Assembly (NCBI GenBank): GCA_016788785.1
Contig: JAEUSM010000006.1
Location: 186,001 to 250,000, forward strand
DNA from: Candidatus Kapaibacterium sp.
GTDB lineage: Bacteria; Bacteroidota; Ignavibacteria; Kapaibacteriales; JAEUSM01
Length of the DNA: 64,000 bases
Direction: 5' to 3'
Under the pieces are notes generated by a model. The model searched no databases. It worked only from the letters and a program-made list of their open reading frames with translations, and was not told the origin of the DNA. Positions 46,982 through 58,986 of the stretch are shown piece after piece (positions within the stretch are counted from its first letter, which is position 1; each line of letters begins with the position of its first letter). The translations under genes were made by a program, and so were the position numbers.

Positions 46982-47656
46982 ATGTGTATTTTTCATAATT
47001 TAAAAAAAATCATGCTTAACTTCATTGTAGGAACAGTTCTTTTTCTATTTGTTGCAACTACTTCTTTATTTTCTCAAAAAGTCGGTTATTTCTCTTCTAA
47101 AGGTGTTTTAGAACGGTTACCAGAATCTGCTCAAATCGAACAACAAATACGTTCAACTTGGGAAGAATGGGAGCGTGAATTGGATCTGAAAAAGAAGGAA
47201 ATTCAAGAACTCGAGATAGAGATACGCAATAACCGTCTAATTTGGAGCGATGCAGAACGAATAGAAAAAGATAAAGAACTTGTTCGAAAGAAAGAAGAAC
47301 GAGATGCATTTGCAAAAATAAAATTTAGCCCTTCTGGTGAAGTCGACAAGTTACCAACAACGCTTTATAAACCGTTGATAGAAAAAGTATACGCTGCAGT
47401 TCAAAAAGTATCAAATTCAAAAGGTTTTGATTTGATATTTGACAAAAGCACACATCAAATGGCGTATGTAAATCCAAAATTTGATATTACAATTTTTATT
47501 TTAGAAGAATTAGGGGTTGATGTTTCAGAAGATTTAGATAAGTTAAAAAAGGCAATTGAAGCAGATCCACGAAACCAAAGAATTGAACCAAAACAAGCTC
47601 CTCAAAAAAAATCTCGCTCTCGTTCGTCTAAATCAAAAGATACCGAAATAGAATAA
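46982..47656 (+). CDS. Skp/OmpH-family periplasmic chaperone, copy 2
   Basis: The protein is 224 residues from ATG 46982. A second ATG at 47012 would remove the only positive charges (KK) before the hydrophobic core, so the longer signal peptide is preferred. The layout is as in copy 1 (KVGYFSSKGVLERLPESAQI; helical hairpin about 50-125; FDLIFDKSTHQMAYVNPKFDIT), but with a 40-residue basic tail (PQKKSRSRSSKSK) not present in copy 1. Two skp copies behind bamA are usual in Bacteroidota; the basic tail is the unusual part and might bind acidic envelope polymers (inference). Confidence 0.9.
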   Translation: MCIFHNLKKIMLNFIVGTVLFLFVATTSLFSQKVGYFSSKGVLERLPESAQIEQQIRSTWEEWERELDLKKKEIQELEIEIRNNRLIWSDAERIEKDKELVRKKEERDAFAKIKFSPSGEVDKLPTTLYKPLIEKVYAAVQKVSNSKGFDLIFDKSTHQMAYVNPKFDITIFILEELGVDVSEDLDKLKKAIEADPRNQRIEPKQAPQKKSRSRSSKSKDTEIE

Positions 47657-47671
47657 TAAATATTTTTATCA

Positions 47672-48709
47672 ATGACACATACAATAGCAGAAATCGCCAC
47701 GATAGTTGGTGGTAAAATTACAGGCAACCCTTCTACCATTATAACTGGAGTTTCTTCGATTAGTGACTCAAAAGAAGGTGATATTACGTTTGTTGCTAAT
47801 CAACGATATGAGAAATTTATAACAACAACAAAAGCTTCGTGTGTCATTGTTCCAAGTAATTTTGACAAAGAAACTATTCAAAACTTGATTTTAGTTGATA
47901 ATCCCTACAATGCAATTGTTCTTTATATTGAATATCTACTTTCTTTACAATCAAAAAAACCTGCAACAATTCATCCTTCTGCTGTCATTGGAAATAATAC
48001 TTCACTTGCTGAAAATGTTTCTATTGGTCCTAATGTAGTTATTGGAGATAATTGTAGAATTGATGAGAATGTAAGTATTTTTGCAAATTGTGTTATAGAA
48101 TCAAATTGTTCTATTGGCAAAAATTCCATAATAAGGGCAAATGTAACTTGTTACGAACGAACTAGCATTGGTGAACACACTATAATCAATAGTGGTGCAG
48201 TCATTGGTTCTGATGGATTCGGATTTATTGAAAATACTGATGGTTCATTCAGAAGAATCCCACATATTGGTAATGTGGTTATAGGTAATTATTGTGATAT
48301 TGGTTCAAACACGACTATTGATAGAGGAACTATTGGTTCAACTGTAATCGAAGATGGTGTTAAAATAGATAATTTAGTACAAATTGCACACAATGTTCGC
48401 ATTTGTGAAAATACTGCCATTGCTTCTCAGGCTGGAATTGCCGGAAGTACTACCATTGGAAAAGGAAACAGAATTGGTGGTCAAGTTGGCGTTATTGGGC
48501 ATCTAACCCTTGCTGAGAATGTTATAATTCATCCTCAAACTGGTGTTTCAAAGAATATAACTAAACCTGGACACTATTTTGGTTCACCAGCTAAAGAGCA
48601 TCTTACAACATTAAAACAAGAAGCTGCGTTGAACCAACTTCCACAGTTATTAAAAGAATTTCGTGAGTTAAAAAACAAATTCGACAAAGTTCAACAAATT
48701 GACGAGTAG
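47672..48709 (+). CDS. lpxD: UDP-3-O-acylglucosamine N-acyltransferase
   Basis: The 345-residue enzyme adds the second acyl chain in lipid A synthesis, from acyl-ACP to UDP-3-O-acyl-glucosamine. The N-terminal uridine-binding domain (EIATIVGGKITGNPS, GDITFVANQRYE) is followed by a left-handed parallel beta helix of hexapeptide repeats (about 100-290), with the catalytic-His region IDNLVQIAHNVRIC and the C-terminal helices (LNQLPQLLKEFRELKNK). Length is normal. It closes the uppS-bamA-ompH-ompH-lpxD operon, 15 bases after the second ompH, and converges on miaE with 4 bases between stops. Confidence 0.96.
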   Translation: MTHTIAEIATIVGGKITGNPSTIITGVSSISDSKEGDITFVANQRYEKFITTTKASCVIVPSNFDKETIQNLILVDNPYNAIVLYIEYLLSLQSKKPATIHPSAVIGNNTSLAENVSIGPNVVIGDNCRIDENVSIFANCVIESNCSIGKNSIIRANVTCYERTSIGEHTIINSGAVIGSDGFGFIENTDGSFRRIPHIGNVVIGNYCDIGSNTTIDRGTIGSTVIEDGVKIDNLVQIAHNVRICENTAIASQAGIAGSTTIGKGNRIGGQVGVIGHLTLAENVIIHPQTGVSKNITKPGHYFGSPAKEHLTTLKQEAALNQLPQLLKEFRELKNKFDKVQQIDE

Positions 48710-48713
48710 CTCT

Positions 48714-49289
48714 TTAACCATGTATAGTTGCGGTATTTTCTAATAAATCAACTATTTCAGCTTCTTTTAGTGCCAATTCTTCCAAGCGTTGTTTTACAGT
48801 TTCTTTTGGAAAATACTCTCGAGCAATGTCAGTGTATATTGTATAATGACCTGCTTCAGAAGCTAAAAGATCTGAGTAAAATTTTTGCAATTCACTTGAT
48901 TGAACATGTTTAGCCAATTGAGAAAATCGTTCACACGATCTTGCTTCTATTAATGCACCTACCAATAAAGAATCCAAAAATCTCATAGGCACTTGTTTTG
49001 AAATCAAGGTATGCAGATTTTGAACAAAGAAGTTTCCGGAGTCTTTGGTAAATTCAATACCTTTTTCAACAATATAATTATGAACTAATTGAAAATGTTC
49101 CAATTCTTCTAGAGCAATTTCAATCATTTTTGAAACCATCGATACTTTTTCTGGGTAACGTGTTGTCATAGATAATGCAAAAGTAGCAGCCTTTCTTTCA
49201 CAATGTGCATGATCAACTAAAATTTGATCTAAGTTTTCTAAGGCATTTTCAACCCACTCAATTTTGGAATCTGATTTTAAGCACAACAT
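48714..49289 (-). CDS. miaE: tRNA-(ms2io6A)-hydroxylase (MiaE)
   Basis: The 191-residue protein is a ferritin-like di-iron enzyme that hydroxylates the isopentenyl group of ms2i6A at position 37 of tRNAs reading UNN codons. The iron-binding pattern is visible: E in DHAHCERKAA, E-x-x-H in LEELEHFQLVH, E in EARSCERF and E-x-x-H in SEAGHYTIY. MiaE is best known from Proteobacteria. The ATG directly follows the TAA of the ion-channel gene (TAAATG), so it is the last gene of that operon. No other tRNA-modification gene is nearby. Confidence 0.9.
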   Translation of the reverse strand: MLCLKSDSKIEWVENALENLDQILVDHAHCERKAATFALSMTTRYPEKVSMVSKMIEIALEELEHFQLVHNYIVEKGIEFTKDSGNFFVQNLHTLISKQVPMRFLDSLLVGALIEARSCERFSQLAKHVQSSELQKFYSDLLASEAGHYTIYTDIAREYFPKETVKQRLEELALKEAEIVDLLENTATIHG

Positions 49290-50390
49290 TTACCGAGCCA
49301 CACCATAATCTTCAAAAAACTTTGTAATTGAACCATCTTCTATTTTTTTCAACAAGGTTGTATTTAATAACGTTGTATGTTCATAATTGTGAGGTACGAC
49401 AAAACTCAGATTTTCAACCTCATCATCAATCGCAATAATCATTAACTTATCATTTGGATGTTTGTATAAATGATATTGAAGTTGAGGTGCTCCAAATACC
49501 ACTGCATCAACTTCTTTGTTTACCAATTGGTCTATACATCGTGCAACTGAGGTTTCTTTGAGTATTTTATCAGTATATTTTGAAGCAATTTCTGCAGAAG
49601 TAGTTTTTTCAACCGTTGCTACTTTCTTGTTGAGCAAATCAGACGCTTTTTCAATTGCTGAATTTTTCAACTGATTCAGTGTAAAAGCAGTTGCAATAGT
49701 TGCTGTCAATGAAGATGCAATAATCATTGAACAGACTATCCAAAATCCCGAAAGAACTCTCCCAAAATGAGACTTTACAACTAAATCTCCATAACCAACT
49801 GTGGAGAAAGTGACTATACTAAACCACATTCCATTCAAAACTCCACGGAAGTAATTTTTTGGAAAGCAATCAGTATTGATTTTTCGTTCTGCAAACCAGA
49901 TGAGATTTCCTACAAAAAACAGTAAGCCTAAGAGAATTCCTATACCAACAGCAAAAGTTTTTGAAAATAATGGTGATATAAAATCAAAAAAACTTGATTC
50001 TCCTACAAAGGTCATAATACCCATTTTACCACGAGTATACGGTTGCATAAAATTTACTTTTTCAGCTCGACCAGCATTCACTGTAATTGGACCAACAAGT
50101 ACATCATAAACTCCCATTTGTACAGAATCAATTGAGCCACCTACAGTTTTCCCTCTGGTTAAAGTGTATTGAATATTCAATTCTTTTGCCATACTTTTCC
50201 ATATTTCTAATGATATTCCTGTTATAGTTTTTTTACCATTTATGACTGTATCAATCACAAAAGGTGGAGAACCTGCTACAACAATATTTAATGTATCAGT
50301 AATAGAAAAGAGAGATAATGGAAAGAGAAAAAGTATTACCGCAACAACAAATTGTCGGAGTTTATTGGAAGAATTTGAAGAGAATTTCAT
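49290..50390 (-). CDS. GluR0-like ligand-gated potassium channel (prokaryotic ionotropic glutamate receptor)
   Basis: A 366-residue protein with a signal peptide (to about LFS, residue 29). A periplasmic-binding-protein type domain is split into S1 (about 32-140) and S2 (about 250-366) around a pore: TM1 (FAVGIGILLGLLFFVGNLIWF), pore loop with K+ filter TVGYGD, and TM2 (VLSGFWIVCSMIIASSLTATIATAF). S1 has ITVNAGRAEKVNFMQPY, whose Arg fits the ligand-carboxylate site of glutamate receptors; S2 has KEVDAVVFGAP. This is exactly the GluR0 topology: an amino-acid-like ligand in the periplasm opens a K+ pore. Its start lies 29 bases inside the upstream gene, and it is directly followed by miaE. Confidence 0.88.
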   Translation of the reverse strand: MKFSSNSSNKLRQFVVAVILFLFPLSLFSITDTLNIVVAGSPPFVIDTVINGKKTITGISLEIWKSMAKELNIQYTLTRGKTVGGSIDSVQMGVYDVLVGPITVNAGRAEKVNFMQPYTRGKMGIMTFVGESSFFDFISPLFSKTFAVGIGILLGLLFFVGNLIWFAERKINTDCFPKNYFRGVLNGMWFSIVTFSTVGYGDLVVKSHFGRVLSGFWIVCSMIIASSLTATIATAFTLNQLKNSAIEKASDLLNKKVATVEKTTSAEIASKYTDKILKETSVARCIDQLVNKEVDAVVFGAPQLQYHLYKHPNDKLMIIAIDDEVENLSFVVPHNYEHTTLLNTTLLKKIEDGSITKFFEDYGVAR

Positions 50391-53091
50391 TAGTTTCCTT
50401 TACTTTAATCGTTTGAAGTACAGATGCAAAATACGATTTATTTCTCTTATTTACTAATTCATTTAAAAGTATTGAACGTTCAGGAATTGAAAGTGAAGCA
50501 TACAACTGTAAAAGAAACGAAGTAACTAAAGGAGTATGTTCGATTTTTTGCAACAACCGTAAAGTAGAGATTTTACTGTAAGAAGTAAGACTTTTTTTAA
50601 ATAATTGTTGTAATGTTACTAATGGAATAGAATCTGTTTGAAGTAATCCTGCTACAAAATTATTTCTAACAACTTGTTCATTGTCTTGAATAAATAATGA
50701 TGAAGTTTCTTGAAGTGAACCTTTGGATAAAATACCCAATGAAAGTGCAACTTTTGAGCGTACATAAGGATGATTTGAAATACTTTGATTTTGTAACCAA
50801 GAAATACAAGTACTATCTCCGATTTCTCCAATTCTTTCAGCAATTAACGAAGCAACTTTCCAATTTTGACTCTCTAATAACATTCTATAAAATGGTAAAG
50901 CTTCTCTGATTTTCTTCTTTGTTACAACATATGAACAAATAGACAATACTCGTAAATTTACAGAAGTAGAAAGAGAATCTAAAATTACGTTTTTCCAAAG
51001 TGTACTTTTATCGTACACTTCTGGTAAAATCATTTCCAATGCTAATCTATCACGTGGAAAAACAGATGAAAATTTCGAAACTAAAAATGGAATAACTTCC
51101 ATTTGTGGTATGCTAGAAAACTTTTTCCTTGCAGGAGTAACAATATATTGAAAACTATTTAAAGGAGTAGACGCTTCCATAAACAATGAATCCAAATTAT
51201 CAGAGTGTGGATAGCTTTTAGTAACAGCACCTTGGTCATTTTTTGGAGAAACAATATCCGAATTAACATTAAAATTAAAATCCAAAAAAGTACCATAAGT
51301 TGATTTATGAGTAACGGAATTGTTGTTCAGAATTGAATTATAAACATCTTTACCAAAAGCATCACAAAAGATGCCCATCATACCATAATTTCTTCGAAAA
51401 TCTGAATAACCAAATGTGTTAGTTTCATTTAAACCAACATAAGAATCATTTCCATGAAGATCATAAAACAGTGAAGATGCATTCGCATTTCCAGATCCTA
51501 ATGATAAACTTTCAGCAAAATAATGATCATCTCCACTAAAATCAACTAAAGCTCCCATAGCAATATCATGTCCGCAACCTTGGGAAACGCCGTGAGAAGT
51601 GTAGACATCATTTCCAGCACTATCTAAAAGTATTCCAAAAGCTAAATGAACACCTGATCCTTGAGCATATTGATACGATGTGTATACATCCTCACCTTTT
51701 GAATCAACTAATGCTCCCAAACCAAACCAATATGCAGTTCCTTGACCATAAATATCAGATGAATATTTATCATTACCTTCTGTATCAGAAAGTATTCCAA
51801 TTCCCCCAGAAGCTATGGGTCTGAAACCTAAAGAAGCTCCTTGGGTAAATGTAACAAAATGATTGTCATACCGCAAAACATCCAAAAAAGGTGAACTAGT
51901 AAGGTAATAATCATTTCCACCTTCTTCACGTAGAACCCCAATTCCTAATGTATAACCAAAACCTTGACCTTGAGATTGAACTGTATATATATCATTTCCA
52001 CCTTTATCCCAAAGAATTCCAAATCCAAATGCCCCACTACCTTGCGAAGTGACTGCTGATGAATATGTATCATTACCTCCTTGGTCATACAGAACACCAA
52101 AACCAAAAACACCCGTACCTAAAGATAGTGAACCTGCTATGTAATGATCATTACCAACTACATCAAATAAGATTCCAGAACCAAAATACCCTGCACCAAA
52201 AGAATAATCTTTTCCTTTATAAATATCATCACCTTGTAAATCAATAATTAATCTATTAGGAACTTTTGAGAGTGTTTCTTTCGATTCGTTAAACATATAA
52301 CTATCGTCACCTAAACAATCAATAATTAGAAATTCTGCTGAGGTATAAGTATCATTTTTAGAACTACCTATTACAATTCTGTAATGCTTATCAACCGTAA
52401 AGACAAATTGCTTTTGTATTTTTATTGGGTTTTTTAATAGAAAATTTTGAAGTTGAAGTAGCTCATGAGAAAGTAAATTCCCTGTTAATACAACTTTAGA
52501 GATTATCTGTCTATTGGCATGAATTGAATCAAACAATTTTAATGATTGATTATAAGAGGATATTTCATTTAATTTAAAGGAATATACCGTAGATTGCTCA
52601 TTTGCTTCATTATTTCTCAATAAATCATCTACGTTTCGATAAAGATATTCAGAAGAATTTTTTGATGAGATTCCTAATGAAACAATGTTTTGTAAATATT
52701 GGATTAATTGAGGATACTCAGGATAACTTCCTAATACCTTTTTAAAATTGGTTATATCTTTAGAATTTAACGTATATTCACTTTTGGATTTTTGAGAAGA
52801 AGGAAGTTCTAAAGTTTTTGTAAGTAATTGGTAAAATTCTTGTGAAAAAGGGGAAAATTGTTGGTTAGATAAAAATGAGTTTGTGAATTGTAAAGTAGAA
52901 AGTGGATTTTCAAAGAAATCGCAAATAGTAGAGAAACGAAATGAGTCCTTATCCACTGCATCACAAGGCATTCTCAAATCATTTTTTGACATTCCTATAA
53001 AGGAAAAACTTGAATCAATAACTGCATCCAATTCTTGTGAAAATGTTAATTGAAATACACAAAAAAAGAATACAACTATTGCAGTTTTCAT
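50362..53091 (-). CDS. Exported G-N-D-x-Y repeat (predicted beta-solenoid) protein with HEAT-like C-terminus
   Basis: A 909-residue protein with a signal peptide (cut near TFSQ, residue 19). The region about 20-240 is mostly helical and unnamed. Residues about 245-585 hold twelve or thirteen copies of G-(N/D/E/K)-D-x-Y, at 261, 287, 313, 339, 365, 392, 439, 466, 493, 520, 547 and 580, nearly always 26 or 27 residues apart; units read like GNDTYSSAVTSQGSGAFGFG. The spacing suggests one solenoid coil per repeat. Residues about 650-909 are HEAT-like helical pairs (VASLIAERIGEIGDSTCISW, VRSKVALSLGILSKGS). No membrane anchor or T9SS tail is seen. I do not know its function; neighbours are a TPR protein and a K+ channel. 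Confidence 0.75.
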   Translation of the reverse strand: MKTAIVVFFFCVFQLTFSQELDAVIDSSFSFIGMSKNDLRMPCDAVDKDSFRFSTICDFFENPLSTLQFTNSFLSNQQFSPFSQEFYQLLTKTLELPSSQKSKSEYTLNSKDITNFKKVLGSYPEYPQLIQYLQNIVSLGISSKNSSEYLYRNVDDLLRNNEANEQSTVYSFKLNEISSYNQSLKLFDSIHANRQIISKVVLTGNLLSHELLQLQNFLLKNPIKIQKQFVFTVDKHYRIVIGSSKNDTYTSAEFLIIDCLGDDSYMFNESKETLSKVPNRLIIDLQGDDIYKGKDYSFGAGYFGSGILFDVVGNDHYIAGSLSLGTGVFGFGVLYDQGGNDTYSSAVTSQGSGAFGFGILWDKGGNDIYTVQSQGQGFGYTLGIGVLREEGGNDYYLTSSPFLDVLRYDNHFVTFTQGASLGFRPIASGGIGILSDTEGNDKYSSDIYGQGTAYWFGLGALVDSKGEDVYTSYQYAQGSGVHLAFGILLDSAGNDVYTSHGVSQGCGHDIAMGALVDFSGDDHYFAESLSLGSGNANASSLFYDLHGNDSYVGLNETNTFGYSDFRRNYGMMGIFCDAFGKDVYNSILNNNSVTHKSTYGTFLDFNFNVNSDIVSPKNDQGAVTKSYPHSDNLDSLFMEASTPLNSFQYIVTPARKKFSSIPQMEVIPFLVSKFSSVFPRDRLALEMILPEVYDKSTLWKNVILDSLSTSVNLRVLSICSYVVTKKKIREALPFYRMLLESQNWKVASLIAERIGEIGDSTCISWLQNQSISNHPYVRSKVALSLGILSKGSLQETSSLFIQDNEQVVRNNFVAGLLQTDSIPLVTLQQLFKKSLTSYSKISTLRLLQKIEHTPLVTSFLLQLYASLSIPERSILLNELVNKRNKSYFASVLQTIKVKETNEILFKFFQ

Positions 53092-53093
53092 AG

Positions 53094-54632
53094 TTATTTC
53101 ATCATCTCTTTAATTGCCATTATATAATCATCTGCACCAAAAGGATCTTCATCTCTTAGAAGTTCACATTGTTTCAATGCTTCTTCAAATTTATTCATAC
53201 CTGCTAAAAATCGAATATAAACTTTTCTACATTCTCCAAATTTTGGGTCAATTTCTAAAGCTTTAATGAGATTTTTACTAGCATTTTCTTGATCATTCTT
53301 GTTAATATAAATGATACCTAAATTATACCATCCATGAGCATCATTTGGATCAATTTCAACAACTTTTTCAAAGATTTTTTTTGCAGATATATAGTCACCT
53401 TTACTTAACATTATTTCAGCTTTTAACCTGTAGTAAAAAGCAGAACTATCATAAGGAACCTTAGCAATAATTCTATTTGCATAGGTTAGGGCTTCTTCTG
53501 TAAATCCACTTTTTAAATATGCAACAGATAATTTAAATAAACAGTTTATATTGTTAGAATCTAATTTTTCTACTTTTTTAAACAAACTTATCGCCTCAGG
53601 GTATTTTTTGTTTGTTCCATAATGCTGTGCTAATTCCATCAAAAGTTCTTTGCTGTTGGGTATTACTTCTAATCCTTTTTTCAGTATCATTACACTACTA
53701 TCGGCAATACCAAGTTGAGCATACATATCATACATATTTATATAGGACTGTGCGTTTTTATCATCTAATTTTAAAACATCATAATATAGTGATTTCGCAT
53801 ACATGATATTTTGCATTGACATTTCAAAGTCAGCTACAGTTCTTACCAACTTTACTTCATTTGGATATTCTTTAAGTAATTTATAAAAAAATAATCTTGC
53901 CTCTTTTTTCATATTCAATTTAGAATAGACAATACCAATTTGAATTTTAGCCTCTAAATCATTTGGCTCAAATTCTAAAATTCGTTCAAAGCGGTTCATG
54001 GCCTCAGTAAAGTTTCGTAGATTCTCTTCCATTTTTCCAAAATGTAAAAGAGCCTCTCTATTTTTTGGATCAAATGATAAGAGTTCCTTATACTGTTGTC
54101 TGGCTTCTTGCGACTTCCCTAAAATTGCTAAAGTAGAGGCTTTAGCTAATTTTGCTTTTGAATCTTTTGGATTTAGTTGAAGTGCTAGGTTGCTTAAGGA
54201 ATCTACTGATTGATATTTTCCATTTTTAAACAATACATAAGCATATGGTGAATATACTTCTGGATAATTTGACTTGTATTCAAGTGCTTTAGCATATTGT
54301 AACTCTTCTTCTGCTCTTTTGGCAAATTTACCAAAATGTTTACCAAAAAGGTAGAATAGTTCAGCATCTTTCGGAGCTAGTTTAATTGCTTTTTGAAATA
54401 ATTCCGTTCCTTCTTTTTCTAAAAAAGCTTCAGTTGCAGAACTTGCTGTCAGTTTAAGTATTTTGACATCTTTTGGAGACTTTTTCAATTGTTTCATTCC
54501 TTCTTCATACGCCTCAGAGAATTTTTTTGAAGCAAACAATTCTTCGAGTGAACTTTGAGCGTAAGAATCAACTGTAAAAAGTAATACTGTTATTATTATT
54601 AGCGGCGAAATTAAAAGTTTTACTCTAAACAT
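53094..54632 (-). CDS. Exported TPR-repeat protein
   Basis: The 512-residue protein has a signal peptide (cut near SYAQ, residue 26), followed by about twelve tetratricopeptide repeats over nearly the whole length, e.g. AKASTLAILGKSQEARQQYK, ALLHFGKMEENLRNFTEAMN and HGWYNLGIIYINKNDQENAS. TPR superhelices hold protein complexes together; a periplasmic location is inferred from the signal. It lies 6 bases behind the PorV-like gene and 2 bases ahead of the repeat/HEAT protein gene, so the three products are made together. Confidence 0.85.
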   Translation of the reverse strand: MFRVKLLISPLIIITVLLFTVDSYAQSSLEELFASKKFSEAYEEGMKQLKKSPKDVKILKLTASSATEAFLEKEGTELFQKAIKLAPKDAELFYLFGKHFGKFAKRAEEELQYAKALEYKSNYPEVYSPYAYVLFKNGKYQSVDSLSNLALQLNPKDSKAKLAKASTLAILGKSQEARQQYKELLSFDPKNREALLHFGKMEENLRNFTEAMNRFERILEFEPNDLEAKIQIGIVYSKLNMKKEARLFFYKLLKEYPNEVKLVRTVADFEMSMQNIMYAKSLYYDVLKLDDKNAQSYINMYDMYAQLGIADSSVMILKKGLEVIPNSKELLMELAQHYGTNKKYPEAISLFKKVEKLDSNNINCLFKLSVAYLKSGFTEEALTYANRIIAKVPYDSSAFYYRLKAEIMLSKGDYISAKKIFEKVVEIDPNDAHGWYNLGIIYINKNDQENASKNLIKALEIDPKFGECRKVYIRFLAGMNKFEEALKQCELLRDEDPFGADDYIMAIKEMMK

Positions 54633-54638
54633 ATCAGA

Positions 54639-55646
54639 TTAAAAAAGTAGATTAACACTAAAGAAATGACCCATTCTTCCACGAGAAATGTGGTCTTTAG
54701 CAATTGAATATTCTAATTCAAGGTTAACTGGAAATTCATTTGAAATTGGAGGTCGAATTGATATACCTCCACCTAAGGTTGTTAATGGAAGTATTCCAAA
54801 AGAACCGTTATCATTACCCAAAATAGTAAATCCACATCGAATAGTAACCAACGACAAAGGTACAATTTCTGCTCCGATTACTACTCTAGGAATTGTGTCG
54901 AATTGGGTCAGTGAAAAATCAACAGTGGTTAACACATATCGTTCTGGAAGCGTAAATTTTGGATGCACTTCTGAGTAGACATCCTCTTCTCCCAATGAAA
55001 ATTTCTTAGCTACACCCGCTCGAATTGTGTAAGGAATTAACTCAATATCATTAAATTCATTCCAAGACATTTTCCCACCAATATTTTGAAGTGCAAACCC
55101 AATTGTATAGTCATCAATTAAGTGAATTTTAGTTCCAAAATCAAGTGCGAAACCATTTCCATTTAATGCAGTTCCGCTGAGATTTCTATTGAGGTATTTT
55201 GTTGTAGCTCCTAAACTAACATCTCCAACCTTATATCCAACTGAAGCACCAATTGCAATCTGATTTTCAGATAACATACCTATAGGATCACCCAAAGGAT
55301 TTCGGGAAGTAAATTCTGTCCCAGCTAGATTATTGATAGTTAGACCAATTGAAAAGTCATTAGAAAGTTTTTTTGTAGCAGCTAAGGTTGAATGTACTCT
55401 TCCAAATTCTAATACAGCAAACGTAGTAGATATGTGATAAAAATCATCAATGACACTTAAACCACCTGGATTATAGAATAAACCATTTGGGTCATCAGCA
55501 ATTGCAGTAAAAGCTCCACCTAATCCAGCTACTCTTGAACTAACTTCACGTTGTAAAAATGAAGTGGAATATCCACCATTAGTTGCTTGTGAGTAAACAT
55601 TGATTACAGAAAAAAAAAAGAGAAGAACTGGTAATGAATACTTCAT
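54639..55646 (-). CDS. PorV/PorQ-family outer-membrane barrel
   Basis: A 335-residue protein with a signal peptide (to about VYSQ, residue 20). The N-terminal signature VSSRVAGLGGAFTAIADDPNGLFYNPGGLS is typical of the PorV/PorQ (UPF0164) barrels, with the FadL-like inward N-terminal hatch. The rest is alternating amphipathic strands ending in an aromatic strand (GHFFSVNLLF). In T9SS, PorV carries cargo from the translocon to the attachment complex; other family members serve single cargo proteins. It lies 4 bases behind a small predicted T9SS cargo gene, which suggests it handles that protein (inference). It could be PorQ-like rather than PorV. Confidence 0.85.
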   Translation of the reverse strand: MKYSLPVLLFFFSVINVYSQATNGGYSTSFLQREVSSRVAGLGGAFTAIADDPNGLFYNPGGLSVIDDFYHISTTFAVLEFGRVHSTLAATKKLSNDFSIGLTINNLAGTEFTSRNPLGDPIGMLSENQIAIGASVGYKVGDVSLGATTKYLNRNLSGTALNGNGFALDFGTKIHLIDDYTIGFALQNIGGKMSWNEFNDIELIPYTIRAGVAKKFSLGEEDVYSEVHPKFTLPERYVLTTVDFSLTQFDTIPRVVIGAEIVPLSLVTIRCGFTILGNDNGSFGILPLTTLGGGISIRPPISNEFPVNLELEYSIAKDHISRGRMGHFFSVNLLF

Positions 55647-55650
55647 TCTA

Positions 55651-56175
55651 TTAGCGTGAAATTTGAAACTTTTCAGCTATTCGGAAGTTATTGCCTTGTA
55701 CTACACACAAGTACATTCCATTTGGAATACCGGCAGTATTGAAAGTAAAAGTTTTTCTACCAGCTTTTTCATATGATTGAGTTACATATATATCCATTAC
55801 TCTTTTACCAAACAGATTGTAAGCACCACAATCCAAACGCGATTGATCTTGAGCTAATTCTACCGAAACTTCATAGTCATCATTTCTTCCTTTGATGGCA
55901 AGAATTTTAGAAGCTCGAGCTGAGTCAACTTTTGGTTTAAATCCGTACAAGGCTCCTAAATGAGAACGTAAAGAGTCATTGACTGAGAATAAGTCAAATG
56001 ATGGTTTGAACGTTGAAGGTTTTTGGAAAAAGGATATTTTTTCTAATGAAGCAATGTTCATACCAGTAGAAACCATTGGTTGTTTGTTCTGCACATGAGC
56101 ATATATCGTTGTTGAGGAAACAACGATAGAAAGAACCAATAACAACAAACATGTATATCTAACTATTGCCAGCAT
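55651..56175 (-). CDS. Small secreted protein with T9SS-type C-terminal domain
   Basis: A 174-residue protein from ATG 56175; the frame opens 38 codons earlier, but only this start gives a standard signal peptide (MLAIVRYTCLLLLVLSIVVSSTTIYA). Residues about 27-90 are low in predicted structure (SFFQKPSTFKPSFDLFSVND). The last ~80 residues look like a type A sorting domain: strand VSVELAQDQSRLDCG, AYNLFGKRVMDIYV and IPNGMYLCVVQGNNFRIAEK. If so, the protein is little more than a sorting domain plus a short head. It is the first gene of the operon ending in miaE. Confidence 0.68.
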   Translation of the reverse strand: MLAIVRYTCLLLLVLSIVVSSTTIYAHVQNKQPMVSTGMNIASLEKISFFQKPSTFKPSFDLFSVNDSLRSHLGALYGFKPKVDSARASKILAIKGRNDDYEVSVELAQDQSRLDCGAYNLFGKRVMDIYVTQSYEKAGRKTFTFNTAGIPNGMYLCVVQGNNFRIAEKFQISR

Positions 56176-56242
56176 TTTTACTAAGTTAACCGATAAAAGA
56201 TTTACTATTTCTAACGAAAATACGGAATTTTTATTGAAAAAA

Positions 56243-56271
56243 AAAGAGTACCTCGAAAAAAGGTACTCTTT
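56243..56271 (-). terminator. Intrinsic terminator of htrA
   Basis: An 11-bp stem aaagagtacct/aggtactcttt with a 7-base loop; on the minus strand it is followed by a long T-run. It lies 28 bases after the htrA stop codon and upstream of the small T9SS-cargo operon, so that operon must have its own promoter in the remaining ~65 bases. Confidence 0.88.
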
Positions 56272-56299
56272 AATTTTGATTAATCCCATTTTAACGTGA

Positions 56300-57844
56300 T
56301 TATGAATTATTTTCTGGAATGCCTAATGGTATCGCTCGCATTGAATCTTTGTACTTTATTTTCAGAAGTACAGCCTCTCCAGGTTTTTTGGAATCAATGA
56401 TTTTTTTGAGTTCAGCAACAGATTTGACTGCTTGACCACTTACAGAAACTATAACTCCATTCGTGGTAATTCCTTTTCTTGCAGCAGGACCTGCTTGTTG
56501 AACTGATGAGATGTATGCACCATCTGTTACATCGAGATTTTCTTTTACTTTGGCATCTAATGGCATTACTGTAAAACCTAATTTGTCAAAGTTTACTGGC
56601 TCATTTTTATCTTCATCTTTTTTCGATGGAGTTACTGATTCACCTGACGCTACGTCTGTACCATCGCGTGGTAGTAATTTGACAGATTTTTCGATGATTT
56701 TTCCGTCTCGGAAAAGCTTTATTTTTATGGTTTCACCTGCACGTCTAAGAACTATTTTACCTTGTAATTCATTCGAAGAATTAATATGAGTTCCGTCTAA
56801 TTCTAAAATAATATCACCTTGTTCAATTCCAGCTTTTTCTGCTGGTGAACCTTTGATGATTGATTCTACAAAAACACCTTGAACCTTATCTAAATTAACA
56901 GCTTTTGATGTTGTTTCATCAACAGTTCTAATGGAAACACCAATATATCCTCTGTCAATTTTTCCATCTTCAATTAGGTCCATGATTACTGACTGAACAA
57001 TGTCAATTGGAATAGCAAAGCCGTATCCCATATAACCGCCAGTTCTCGTCGCAATTGCAGTATTGATACCGACCAAACTTCCTTCTAAATTGAAAAGACC
57101 TCCACCAGAATTTCCTGGATTGATAGCGGCATCAGTTTGAATGAAATTTTCAACTGCATAGTTATTATTAGAAAGATTTAATTGACCTCTACCAATTGCA
57201 GAAACTATCCCTTGTGTAACAGTAGAACGCAAACCAAGGGGATTACCAACAGCAATAACCCATTCTCCAACTTGTACTTGTTCTGCTTTTGCAAAATGTG
57301 CTGTTGGAAAACCTATTCCTTCAACCTTTATAAGTGCTAAATCTGTCAATGGATCAGTTCCTATCAATTTTGCTTTGTATTCTTTAGCATTTGAGGTAGT
57401 AACTGTAATCTCTTTTGCATTTTCAACAACATGATTATTTGTTACAATGTATCCATCAGGTGTTACAAATACTCCTGAACCCGAGGACTCTGCTGGTGGT
57501 AATGCACCATTTTTGTCTTGGTTGGGAGATTTGAATTCGAAGAAAGGAAACATATCTTCAAATGGACCGAGATCCTGTTGCGATTGAATTCGTCCTTTTC
57601 TTTCAGATTTGACCGTAATTGAAACGACTGTAGGAGATACAGCTTTTGAGGCAGCTACAAATGCATTATTGAGCATTTTAACTGATTGGTCGGTTACAAT
57701 AGGTGCTTTGTCTGACCCTAATTTCACATCAGCTGCGAAAAGTTTTGAAACTGAAATTGATTGGAGATTTGTAACCAATACGACACCAAATAAAATTCCG
57801 ATGCTGATGAGCCCAACAGCAGCGAATAGATGTTTCTTTTGCAT
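56300..57844 (-). CDS. HtrA/DegP-family periplasmic serine protease
   Basis: A 514-residue protein with an N-terminal membrane-type signal (about 5-28). The trypsin-like domain carries the triad H138 (VTNNHVV), D168 (PLTDLALIK) and S246 (NPGNSGGGL). Two PDZ domains follow (about 280-385, GYIGVSIRTVDETTSKAV; and about 420-510, LGFTVMPLDAKVKENL), joined by an acidic linker with KKDEDKNEP. The family degrades or refolds misfolded envelope proteins under stress. Length is typical for Do-like proteases. It is transcribed alone, with its own terminator. Confidence 0.94.
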   Translation of the reverse strand: MQKKHLFAAVGLISIGILFGVVLVTNLQSISVSKLFAADVKLGSDKAPIVTDQSVKMLNNAFVAASKAVSPTVVSITVKSERKGRIQSQQDLGPFEDMFPFFEFKSPNQDKNGALPPAESSGSGVFVTPDGYIVTNNHVVENAKEITVTTSNAKEYKAKLIGTDPLTDLALIKVEGIGFPTAHFAKAEQVQVGEWVIAVGNPLGLRSTVTQGIVSAIGRGQLNLSNNNYAVENFIQTDAAINPGNSGGGLFNLEGSLVGINTAIATRTGGYMGYGFAIPIDIVQSVIMDLIEDGKIDRGYIGVSIRTVDETTSKAVNLDKVQGVFVESIIKGSPAEKAGIEQGDIILELDGTHINSSNELQGKIVLRRAGETIKIKLFRDGKIIEKSVKLLPRDGTDVASGESVTPSKKDEDKNEPVNFDKLGFTVMPLDAKVKENLDVTDGAYISSVQQAGPAARKGITTNGVIVSVSGQAVKSVAELKKIIDSKKPGEAVLLKIKYKDSMRAIPLGIPENNS

Positions 57845-57993
57845 AGAATATACCCTAATTATTAATGAAATACGTAAATGGTACTAATGTTCAATAATTC
57901 TTTCTGTTTATTTGATAATTTACCACAATAAATTAACGAAATTTTTAGAAAAATATTGTTCTTTAGATTTATGTTAAACGATTAGATTTTTCT

Positions 57994-58986
57994 TTGAAAA
58001 ACCCCCTAAAATATTCGTTGTTTTTTTTGTCGATACTTTGTTTAATTGGAGTATTGTCAATATTTGTTGTTACATTCACTTCACCTATAAACAAAAATAA
58101 ACATCTTTTCATTCCATCAAATACAAAAACTATTTCGTTGTTAGATTCACTACAAAACACTTCTGTTTTTGATAAAACAATGATTAAAATAGTTGACCCT
58201 ATTATTGAGTTGTTATTGCGAAGAAAACCCTATTCACAAGAAATATCGCTTATTAAAGGGACGAATTTTATTTCTTTCTGTGTTCAACTTAGAACAAAAC
58301 AACCTATCAATACTGTTTCTATTTCAATTCCAGAGGGATTAAATATAATGGAAATTGCTTCTATTTTCCGTCATAAAATGAAAATAGATTCAGTTGCATT
58401 TCTTTCATTGTGTACCAATCAACAGTTCATTGATTCATTGAATATAAATGCAAATTCTTTGGAGGGGTATTTATACCCTAATACGTACGAATTTTATCAA
58501 AATTCTACTCCACAAGTAGTTTTAAAACGACTTACAAAAGAGTTTAATAAAATGTGGACTAAGTATTGTTCTTCCGTTGAAGTAAAAGACCAACGCTCTA
58601 TTCTAACATTAGCATCCATAGTTGAAGCTGAAACTCCGATTATTTCTGAACGAAGAACTGTTGCAGGAGTCTATCAAAATAGAATTAACAAAGGAATGAA
58701 ATTAGAAGCTGATCCGACTGTGCAATATGCATTAAAAAGTAAGAAAAGATTGTATTACAAAGATTTGGAGATAGACAATCCCTATAACACCTATCGTTAC
58801 AAAGGATTGCCTCCCGGACCAATCAATTCTCCAAGTATCTCTTCTATTTTAGCTGCAATTTCACCAGAAAATCATTCGTATTTATTCTTTGTAGCTCGAG
58901 GAGATAATTCAAATCTGCATTACTTTTCTACAACGTACTCGCAACATTTAGAATCAGTAGCATTATACCGTGCGAGAAACAAATGA
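57994..58986 (+). CDS. mltG: Endolytic murein transglycosylase
   Basis: A 330-residue inner-membrane protein: N-terminal membrane segment (about 8-29), then a LysM-like subdomain (SISIPEGLNIMEIASIF) and the YceG catalytic domain with SLEGYLYPNTYEFY, E211 in LASIVEAETPI, and RINKGMKLEADPTVQYAL. It cuts nascent glycan strands and sets their length. No in-frame ATG precedes the membrane segment; TTG 57994 with KNPLKYS as the basic n-region is chosen. It overlaps lpxK by 4 bases (ATGA) and heads a five-gene operon. Confidence 0.93.
   Translation: MKNPLKYSLFFLSILCLIGVLSIFVVTFTSPINKNKHLFIPSNTKTISLLDSLQNTSVFDKTMIKIVDPIIELLLRRKPYSQEISLIKGTNFISFCVQLRTKQPINTVSISIPEGLNIMEIASIFRHKMKIDSVAFLSLCTNQQFIDSLNINANSLEGYLYPNTYEFYQNSTPQVVLKRLTKEFNKMWTKYCSSVEVKDQRSILTLASIVEAETPIISERRTVAGVYQNRINKGMKLEADPTVQYALKSKKRLYYKDLEIDNPYNTYRYKGLPPGPINSPSISSILAAISPENHSYLFFVARGDNSNLHYFSTTYSQHLESVALYRARNK

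Follow-up and report, generated by a model that had tools for sequence, protein, structure and literature searches.

A long-coil, RTX-like and probably calcium-binding beta-solenoid partnered with HEAT repeats in a putatively exported protein of Candidatus Kapaibacterium

The window analysed here, a stretch of 64,000 nucleotides from Candidatus Kapaibacterium sp. (contig JAEUSM010000006.1, positions 186,001 to 250,000), carries on its reverse strand an open reading frame that starts with ATG and encodes a protein of 909 residues. Its layout, in coordinates of the window, is as follows.

50362..53091, reverse strand: gene of the putatively exported solenoid-HEAT protein, 909 residues (open reading frame; 41 of the 61 genomes from its order hold orthologues)
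53035..53091, reverse strand: signal-peptide-like N-terminus, residues 1-19, MKTAIVVFFFCVFQLTFSQ (inspection of the sequence only; orthologues similar)
52408..53034, reverse strand: N-terminal helical domain, residues 20-228, poorly conserved (AlphaFold2 secondary structure; low conservation)
51274..52407, reverse strand: predicted beta-solenoid domain, residues 229-606, with 12 GxDxY turns (AlphaFold2; coil profile; fold match to 3p4g, Z 22.5)
51763..51903, reverse strand: long unit of 47 residues, 397-443, in which a loop separates two turns (coil comparison across the subfamily)
51565..51822, reverse strand: candidate functional site on four consecutive coils (invariance in 60 sequences of four subfamilies and in 20 further ones)
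51820-51822 (R424), 51730-51732 (Y454), 51727-51729 (W455), 51646-51648 (H482) and 51565-51567 (D509), reverse strand: residues of the candidate site
51199..51273, reverse strand: disordered linker, residues 607-631 (pLDDT < 50 for 607-624)
50365..51198, reverse strand: HEAT-repeat arm, residues 632-909 (HEAT_2, family profile, AlphaFold2, VIA-align; in 10 of 76 loci encoded by its own gene next to the solenoid gene)

No structured RNA was found in positions 47000-58000 of the window. The N-termini of orthologues are likewise hydrophobic and end in AQ or SQ; a twin-arginine motif occurs in none of 31 family proteins and a lipobox-like pattern in three. A Sec-exported protein, residing in the periplasm or on the cell surface, is the best explanation.

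The repeats that drew attention to this gene are genuine. GxDxY occurs 12 times, at residues 261, 287, 313, 339, 365, 392, 439, 466, 493, 520, 547 and 580, the last motif ending at residue 584, and 11 of these turns extend to DxxGxDxY; the form [DE]xxGxDxY is seen 12 times, where shuffled sequence would give 0.02. The earlier note had counted 12-13 copies of G-N-D-x-Y, but the literal GNDxY is present in only seven turns. Likewise, of the spacings now measured (26, 26, 26, 26, 27, 47, 27, 27, 27, 27 and 33 residues), the runs of 26-27 had been given correctly, but the supposed double-length unit is 47 residues, not twice 26-27, and the final step is 33. Since orthologues at about 35-45% identity keep the spacings of the window protein, they are not due to chance, and the repeat pattern, judged by this conservation, is under selection. 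A long unit of 47-58 residues recurs at the matching place in nearly all members of the subfamily.

A profile of 339 coils of 26-27 residues, cut from 40 solenoids, gives D at position -7 (98%), G at -4 (100%), N or D at -3 (83%), D at -2 (100%) and Y at 0 (98%); further features of the coil are a Q or G close to -20/-19 and the stretch GxGIL between about -13 and -9. The search pattern used for cutting the coils already demanded G(-4), D(-2) and, at 0, an aromatic residue or Ile; the D, G, D and Y are, however, also kept at alignment columns in four subfamilies, free of that bias. The stacking of Asp and Tyr positions suggested earlier is supported.

Structure prediction agrees with the long-coil beta-solenoid that had been proposed for this region, and the predicted fold is repetitive. 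With the window protein and 65 relatives as input, AlphaFold2 models the whole protein at pLDDT 89.9 and pTM 0.89 as N-terminal helices, solenoid, disordered linker and helical arm. Folded alone, the solenoid reaches pLDDT 93.6 and pTM 0.92, with 26-27 residues per coil. Among solved structures, VIA-align places 3p4g at the top for the solenoid model (Z 22.5, rmsd 2.9 Å, 18% identity over 260 aligned residues), clearly ahead of the second-best match (Z 18.1); lower matches include a PL6 lyase (Z 17.0), the S-layer protein RsaA (Z 12) and the RTX domains of CyaA (Z about 10). The whole protein again yields 3p4g first, over residues 236-612 (Z 19.4, rmsd 2.6 Å, 264 residues). Foldseek with the solenoid alone also puts 3p4g at the head of its list, though with a weak score (E 0.04, TM about 0.33), so the fold assignment rests mainly on VIA-align; with the whole protein it returns HEAT/armadillo proteins only, and the solenoid match required separate folding. 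The viral fold library gave no match at E<=0.001, and PDB sequence profiles matched the solenoid only by chance, to cytochrome c3 (E 0.14).

The structure 3p4g is region IV of MpAFP, a Ca2+-dependent RTX-like beta-helix. It shares with the solenoid one GND turn per coil and an uninterrupted stack of 12-13 coils, and the match spans most of the domain; its coils, such as KIDAGTGNDEIYIKGDVSAAVDAGTGNDEVYI, bring one GND turn per 19 residues, which can be aligned by eye to DxxGNDxY. The two differ in coil length (19 versus 26-27 residues) and in the turn (AGTGND versus DxxGND), and at 18% identity they are not matched by sequence profile. Unlike MpAFP region IV, the window protein has a non-repetitive Arg/Tyr/His/Asp site, a putative signal peptide and a HEAT arm. 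With the RTX beta-rolls of CyaA, lipase and protease domains the solenoid has in common a G-x-D-x-hydrophobic turn stacked along a beta-roll; those rolls consist of 18-residue coils with two GGxGxDxUx nonamers and are secreted through a C-terminal type I signal. The C-terminus of the window protein is a HEAT domain, and its N-terminus is signal-peptide-like. GGxGxD is absent from the 909-residue protein, occurs 19 times in 40 solenoids versus 477 occurrences of [DE]xxGxDx[YFW], and the Pfam RTX model PF00353 matches none of 40 members at E<=1. Because it lacks both GGxGxD nonapeptides and a PF00353 match, the solenoid is not called an RTX protein; it is RTX-like in fold. The earlier verdict "not RTX" holds at sequence level; by fold, however, the nearest solved structure is a Ca2+ beta-helix of the RTX-like kind.

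RTX rolls rely on the Asp of GGxGxD to bridge Ca2+ ions from one turn to the next; when Ca2+ is missing, the stacked Asp, spaced about 4.8 Å apart, destabilise the fold (PMC6891781). As the best solved match is Ca2+-dependent, the stacked Asp pairs of the solenoid probably bind Ca2+ as well, and, because almost every coil adds to both stacked Asp columns, a cation ladder along the solenoid is very likely; cation binding, suggested earlier, thus gains support by analogy. The turn itself argues against the Ca2+ model, being DxxGxD rather than GGxGxD, with Asp in place of RTX Gly4 and any residue in place of Gly5; at RTX position 4 even a methyl group is said to clash with a Ca2+ ligand (PMC6891781). 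In the proposed mechanism, each coil would turn at D-x-x-G-N/D-D-x-Y, the two Asp columns would run along one edge of the rod, with Ca2+ bound between successive coils, and the Tyr would sit where RTX proteins have a buried hydrophobic residue. The Ca2+-loaded RTX-like solenoid would form the core of the protein, and the chain, as in RTX proteins, may fold only after export, in a Ca2+-rich compartment.

A scan of one genome per species recovered 269 relatives, and the best 80 of the 269 are, going by record titles, almost all from the FCB group. Most genomes of the order that have an orthologue have just one, at about 35-45% overall identity; across the window's phylum as a whole, 22 of 296 genomes encode the solenoid, all of them from the same class. 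Elsewhere, with phyla again named after the record titles, the solenoid profile is matched in 93 of 98 sampled genomes of Zixibacteria (phylum of locus L092), 89 of 99 of Cloacimonadota (L086), 42 of 60 of WOR-3 (L094), 19 of 20 of Eisenbacteria (L096), 20 of 51 of Latescibacterota (L089) and 2 of 9 of Calditrichota (L071). No named family in Pfam, NCBIfam or PHROGs covers the solenoid; a plasmid search gave no match, and the open-licence literature contains no paper on the motif or on an RTX-like solenoid with HEAT.

Four subfamilies were set by architecture and motifs: A, with HEAT and a GCGHD motif, which includes the window protein; A2 (Cloacimonadota, WOR-3), with HEAT and without GCGHD; and B and C, both without HEAT. 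A quick tree places subfamily A on one side of a branch (SH-aLRT 92), while A2, B and C are clustered and not cleanly separated, partly due to the long-branched L131 and L137. The genome of the window holds one paralogue on another contig (L002:1426-3600, reverse strand, about 724 residues), of subfamily B, with the repeats and without the HEAT arm and the GCGHD motif. In a genome of the Latescibacterota phylum, three diverged solenoid genes lie close together (G647:C75:290-8910; L152-L154), one of which has only about seven GxDxY motifs and keeps the R/Y/H/D residues.

The HEAT-like character of the C-terminus, noticed from the sequence, is borne out. Pfam HEAT_2 matches it at 1.1e-5 (26 bits, just below the cut-off of 27.7), the family profile matches alphaRep HEAT structures at 2.8e-66, and VIA-align superposes the C-terminal arm on alphaRep with Z 16.5 and rmsd 6.5 Å over 266 residues. 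Unlike alphaRep and such HEAT proteins as the PP2A A subunit and the importins, this arm would be exported and is tied to a solenoid, either fused or in a neighbouring gene. Among 80 subfamily-A loci, four are cut by a contig end; in all 76 assessable ones HEAT is present, as a fused domain in 66 and as a separate gene immediately downstream in 10, so that within subfamily A the HEAT arm is an obligate partner. Most of the 10 split HEAT genes have a hydrophobic N-terminus of their own, and the gap to the solenoid gene ranges from -79 to 56 bases. The idea of tandem paralogues at this locus was rejected, as the extra matches were these split HEAT genes. Since HEAT undergoes both fission and fusion with the solenoid, the two are expected to work together, the arm probably docking the solenoid to another envelope component. 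Taken together, a beta-solenoid fold, Ca2+ loading and an obligate HEAT partnership form the main reading of this protein, to which we give a probability of roughly 0.66.

On this scaffold, residues outside the repeat stand out. In 60 solenoids from the four subfamilies, the only columns conserved at >=95% outside DxxGxDxY, Gly and Gln aside, are R424 (100%), Y454 (100%), W455 (97%), H482 (100%) and D509 (100%). R424, Y454, H482 and D509 come one from each of four successive coils, and W455, H482 and D509 share an equal offset within the coil. Another 20 solenoids, diverged ones that are 31-41% identical to the window protein and were unused in finding the site, served as validation: they retain R in 20, Y in 19, H in 20 and D in 19, with W mostly swapped for other aromatics. 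The catalytic-looking residues of subfamily A (D404, R407, C506, H508, R566) are not kept in other solenoids. Polar residues that stay fixed as a non-repetitive cluster, while the scaffold around them repeats, hint at a site for binding or catalysis, and R424/Y454/H482/D509 is accordingly named as the candidate. The rod would present a single non-repetitive polar site, R424, Y454 (with W455), H482 and D509, common to all paralogous subfamilies.

The same residues might instead be purely structural, a buried or capping ladder beside the 47-residue unit of a protein that serves as a scaffold or spacer. R424 lies inside the long unit 397-443, Y454, H482 and D509 follow directly after it, the unit recurs in nearly all subfamily members, and the common coil offset of W455, H482 and D509 is what a stacked ladder would give. 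Ladders, however, usually repeat one residue type, whereas here four different polar residues are fixed, one per coil, and they stay fixed while Q450, C506, H508 and R566 drift between subfamilies; we regard this explanation as rather unlikely. Somewhat less credible still is a new enzyme, in which R424/Y454/H482/D509 would act as an acid-base site, as in right-handed beta-helix lyases and epimerases; its substrate would be a polysaccharide of the envelope or the extracellular space, and HEAT would be the adaptor. The invariance of His, Tyr, Asp and Arg in diverged paralogues and the PL6 lyase among the fold matches speak for it, as does the AlgE-type epimerase beta-helix, where Tyr149, His154, Asp152 and Asp178 are accompanied by Arg195 in the surrounding network (PMC8824271). 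This likeness, however, is one of residue kind without superposition, many non-enzymatic beta-helices match equally well, and carriage by nearly all members of whole phyla is more in keeping with housekeeping than with polymer degradation. The wider group of right-handed beta-helix polysaccharide enzymes (PL6, AlgE/AlgG, GH28) resembles the solenoid in its beta-helix and in a polar His/Tyr/Asp/Arg set on neighbouring coils, a likeness that excludes site geometry, and has no sequence match to it.

Returning to the Ca2+-loaded solenoid with its HEAT partner, the leading guess for its task is that it binds or processes a glycan of the envelope, in a Ca2+-dependent way, at the R/Y/H/D site, a possible but doubtful assignment. 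Its parts, HEAT repeats and a beta-solenoid, are ordinary; unusual are the coil length, the DxxGxDxY turn, the obligate HEAT partner, the invariant R/Y/H/D cluster and the fact that several poorly known phyla carry the protein almost universally although no curated model describes its family. More speculatively, and with the odds clearly against so complete a picture, this could be an unnamed near-core family of enzymes or receptors spread over several phyla of the FCB group: a Ca2+-ladder solenoid with a new coil length would scaffold the invariant Arg/Tyr/His/Asp site, the site would act on a polymer conserved in the envelope, and HEAT would accompany the solenoid throughout the main subfamily. 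These data would offer a first handle on a protein present, often in several copies, in almost every sampled genome of some uncultured phyla; the RTX-type Ca2+ beta-roll would extend to a much longer coil, a different turn and export by an N-terminal signal, and the fixed polar site is directly testable by mutation.

The earlier note had placed the protein in a structural envelope complex with the adjoining TPR, PorV-family and channel genes, and had asked whether the family always travels with PorV-like and TPR genes. In the window these genes lie on the same strand as the solenoid gene and nearly abut it, and a TPR gene stands directly upstream in 12 other loci. The survey of 80 related loci answers in the negative: counterparts of the PorV, channel and MiaE genes occur at none, and TPR is near 16, with generic similarity of about 20-24% identity. 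The neighbours at other loci, named by reading their sequences, are variable and mostly housekeeping (RqcH, RibD, RecA, TatC and others), the commonest being an RqcH/NFACT-like gene directly downstream on the same strand in 22 of the 80 (L043-L073 and others). As the TPR, PorV and channel neighbours are not conserved, the dedicated complex is unsupported and very unlikely, and the variable gene context gives no pointer to substrate or function. An ice-binding or adhesin solenoid of the MpAFP region IV type is extremely improbable: that region is the nearest solved fold, and Asx occurs at coil position -3 in 83%, but ice binding by MpAFP-RIV depends on Thr at position 3 and Asx at position 5 of its repeat, both conserved (PMC3492233), and the matching coil position -5 holds S/A/K/E/G/D, with Thr not among the common residues.

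Several neighbouring genes are described here in their own right. At 49290-50390, reverse strand, an SBP_bac_3 domain is interrupted by an Ion_trans_2/Lig_chan pore, and the product looks like a prokaryotic glutamate-receptor-type ligand-gated channel; this gene shares its first 29 bases with the end of the solenoid gene. In Zixibacteria (L090, L092, L097 and L107) the solenoid gene directly follows a TatC-like gene, so named from its sequence. Finally, a short exported protein is encoded at 55651-56289, reverse strand, with a C-terminus resembling a type IX secretion sorting domain below the curated cut-off (22 versus 27 bits), beside a PorV/PorQ-family gene (54639-55646) that scores above the cut-off of NF033709.
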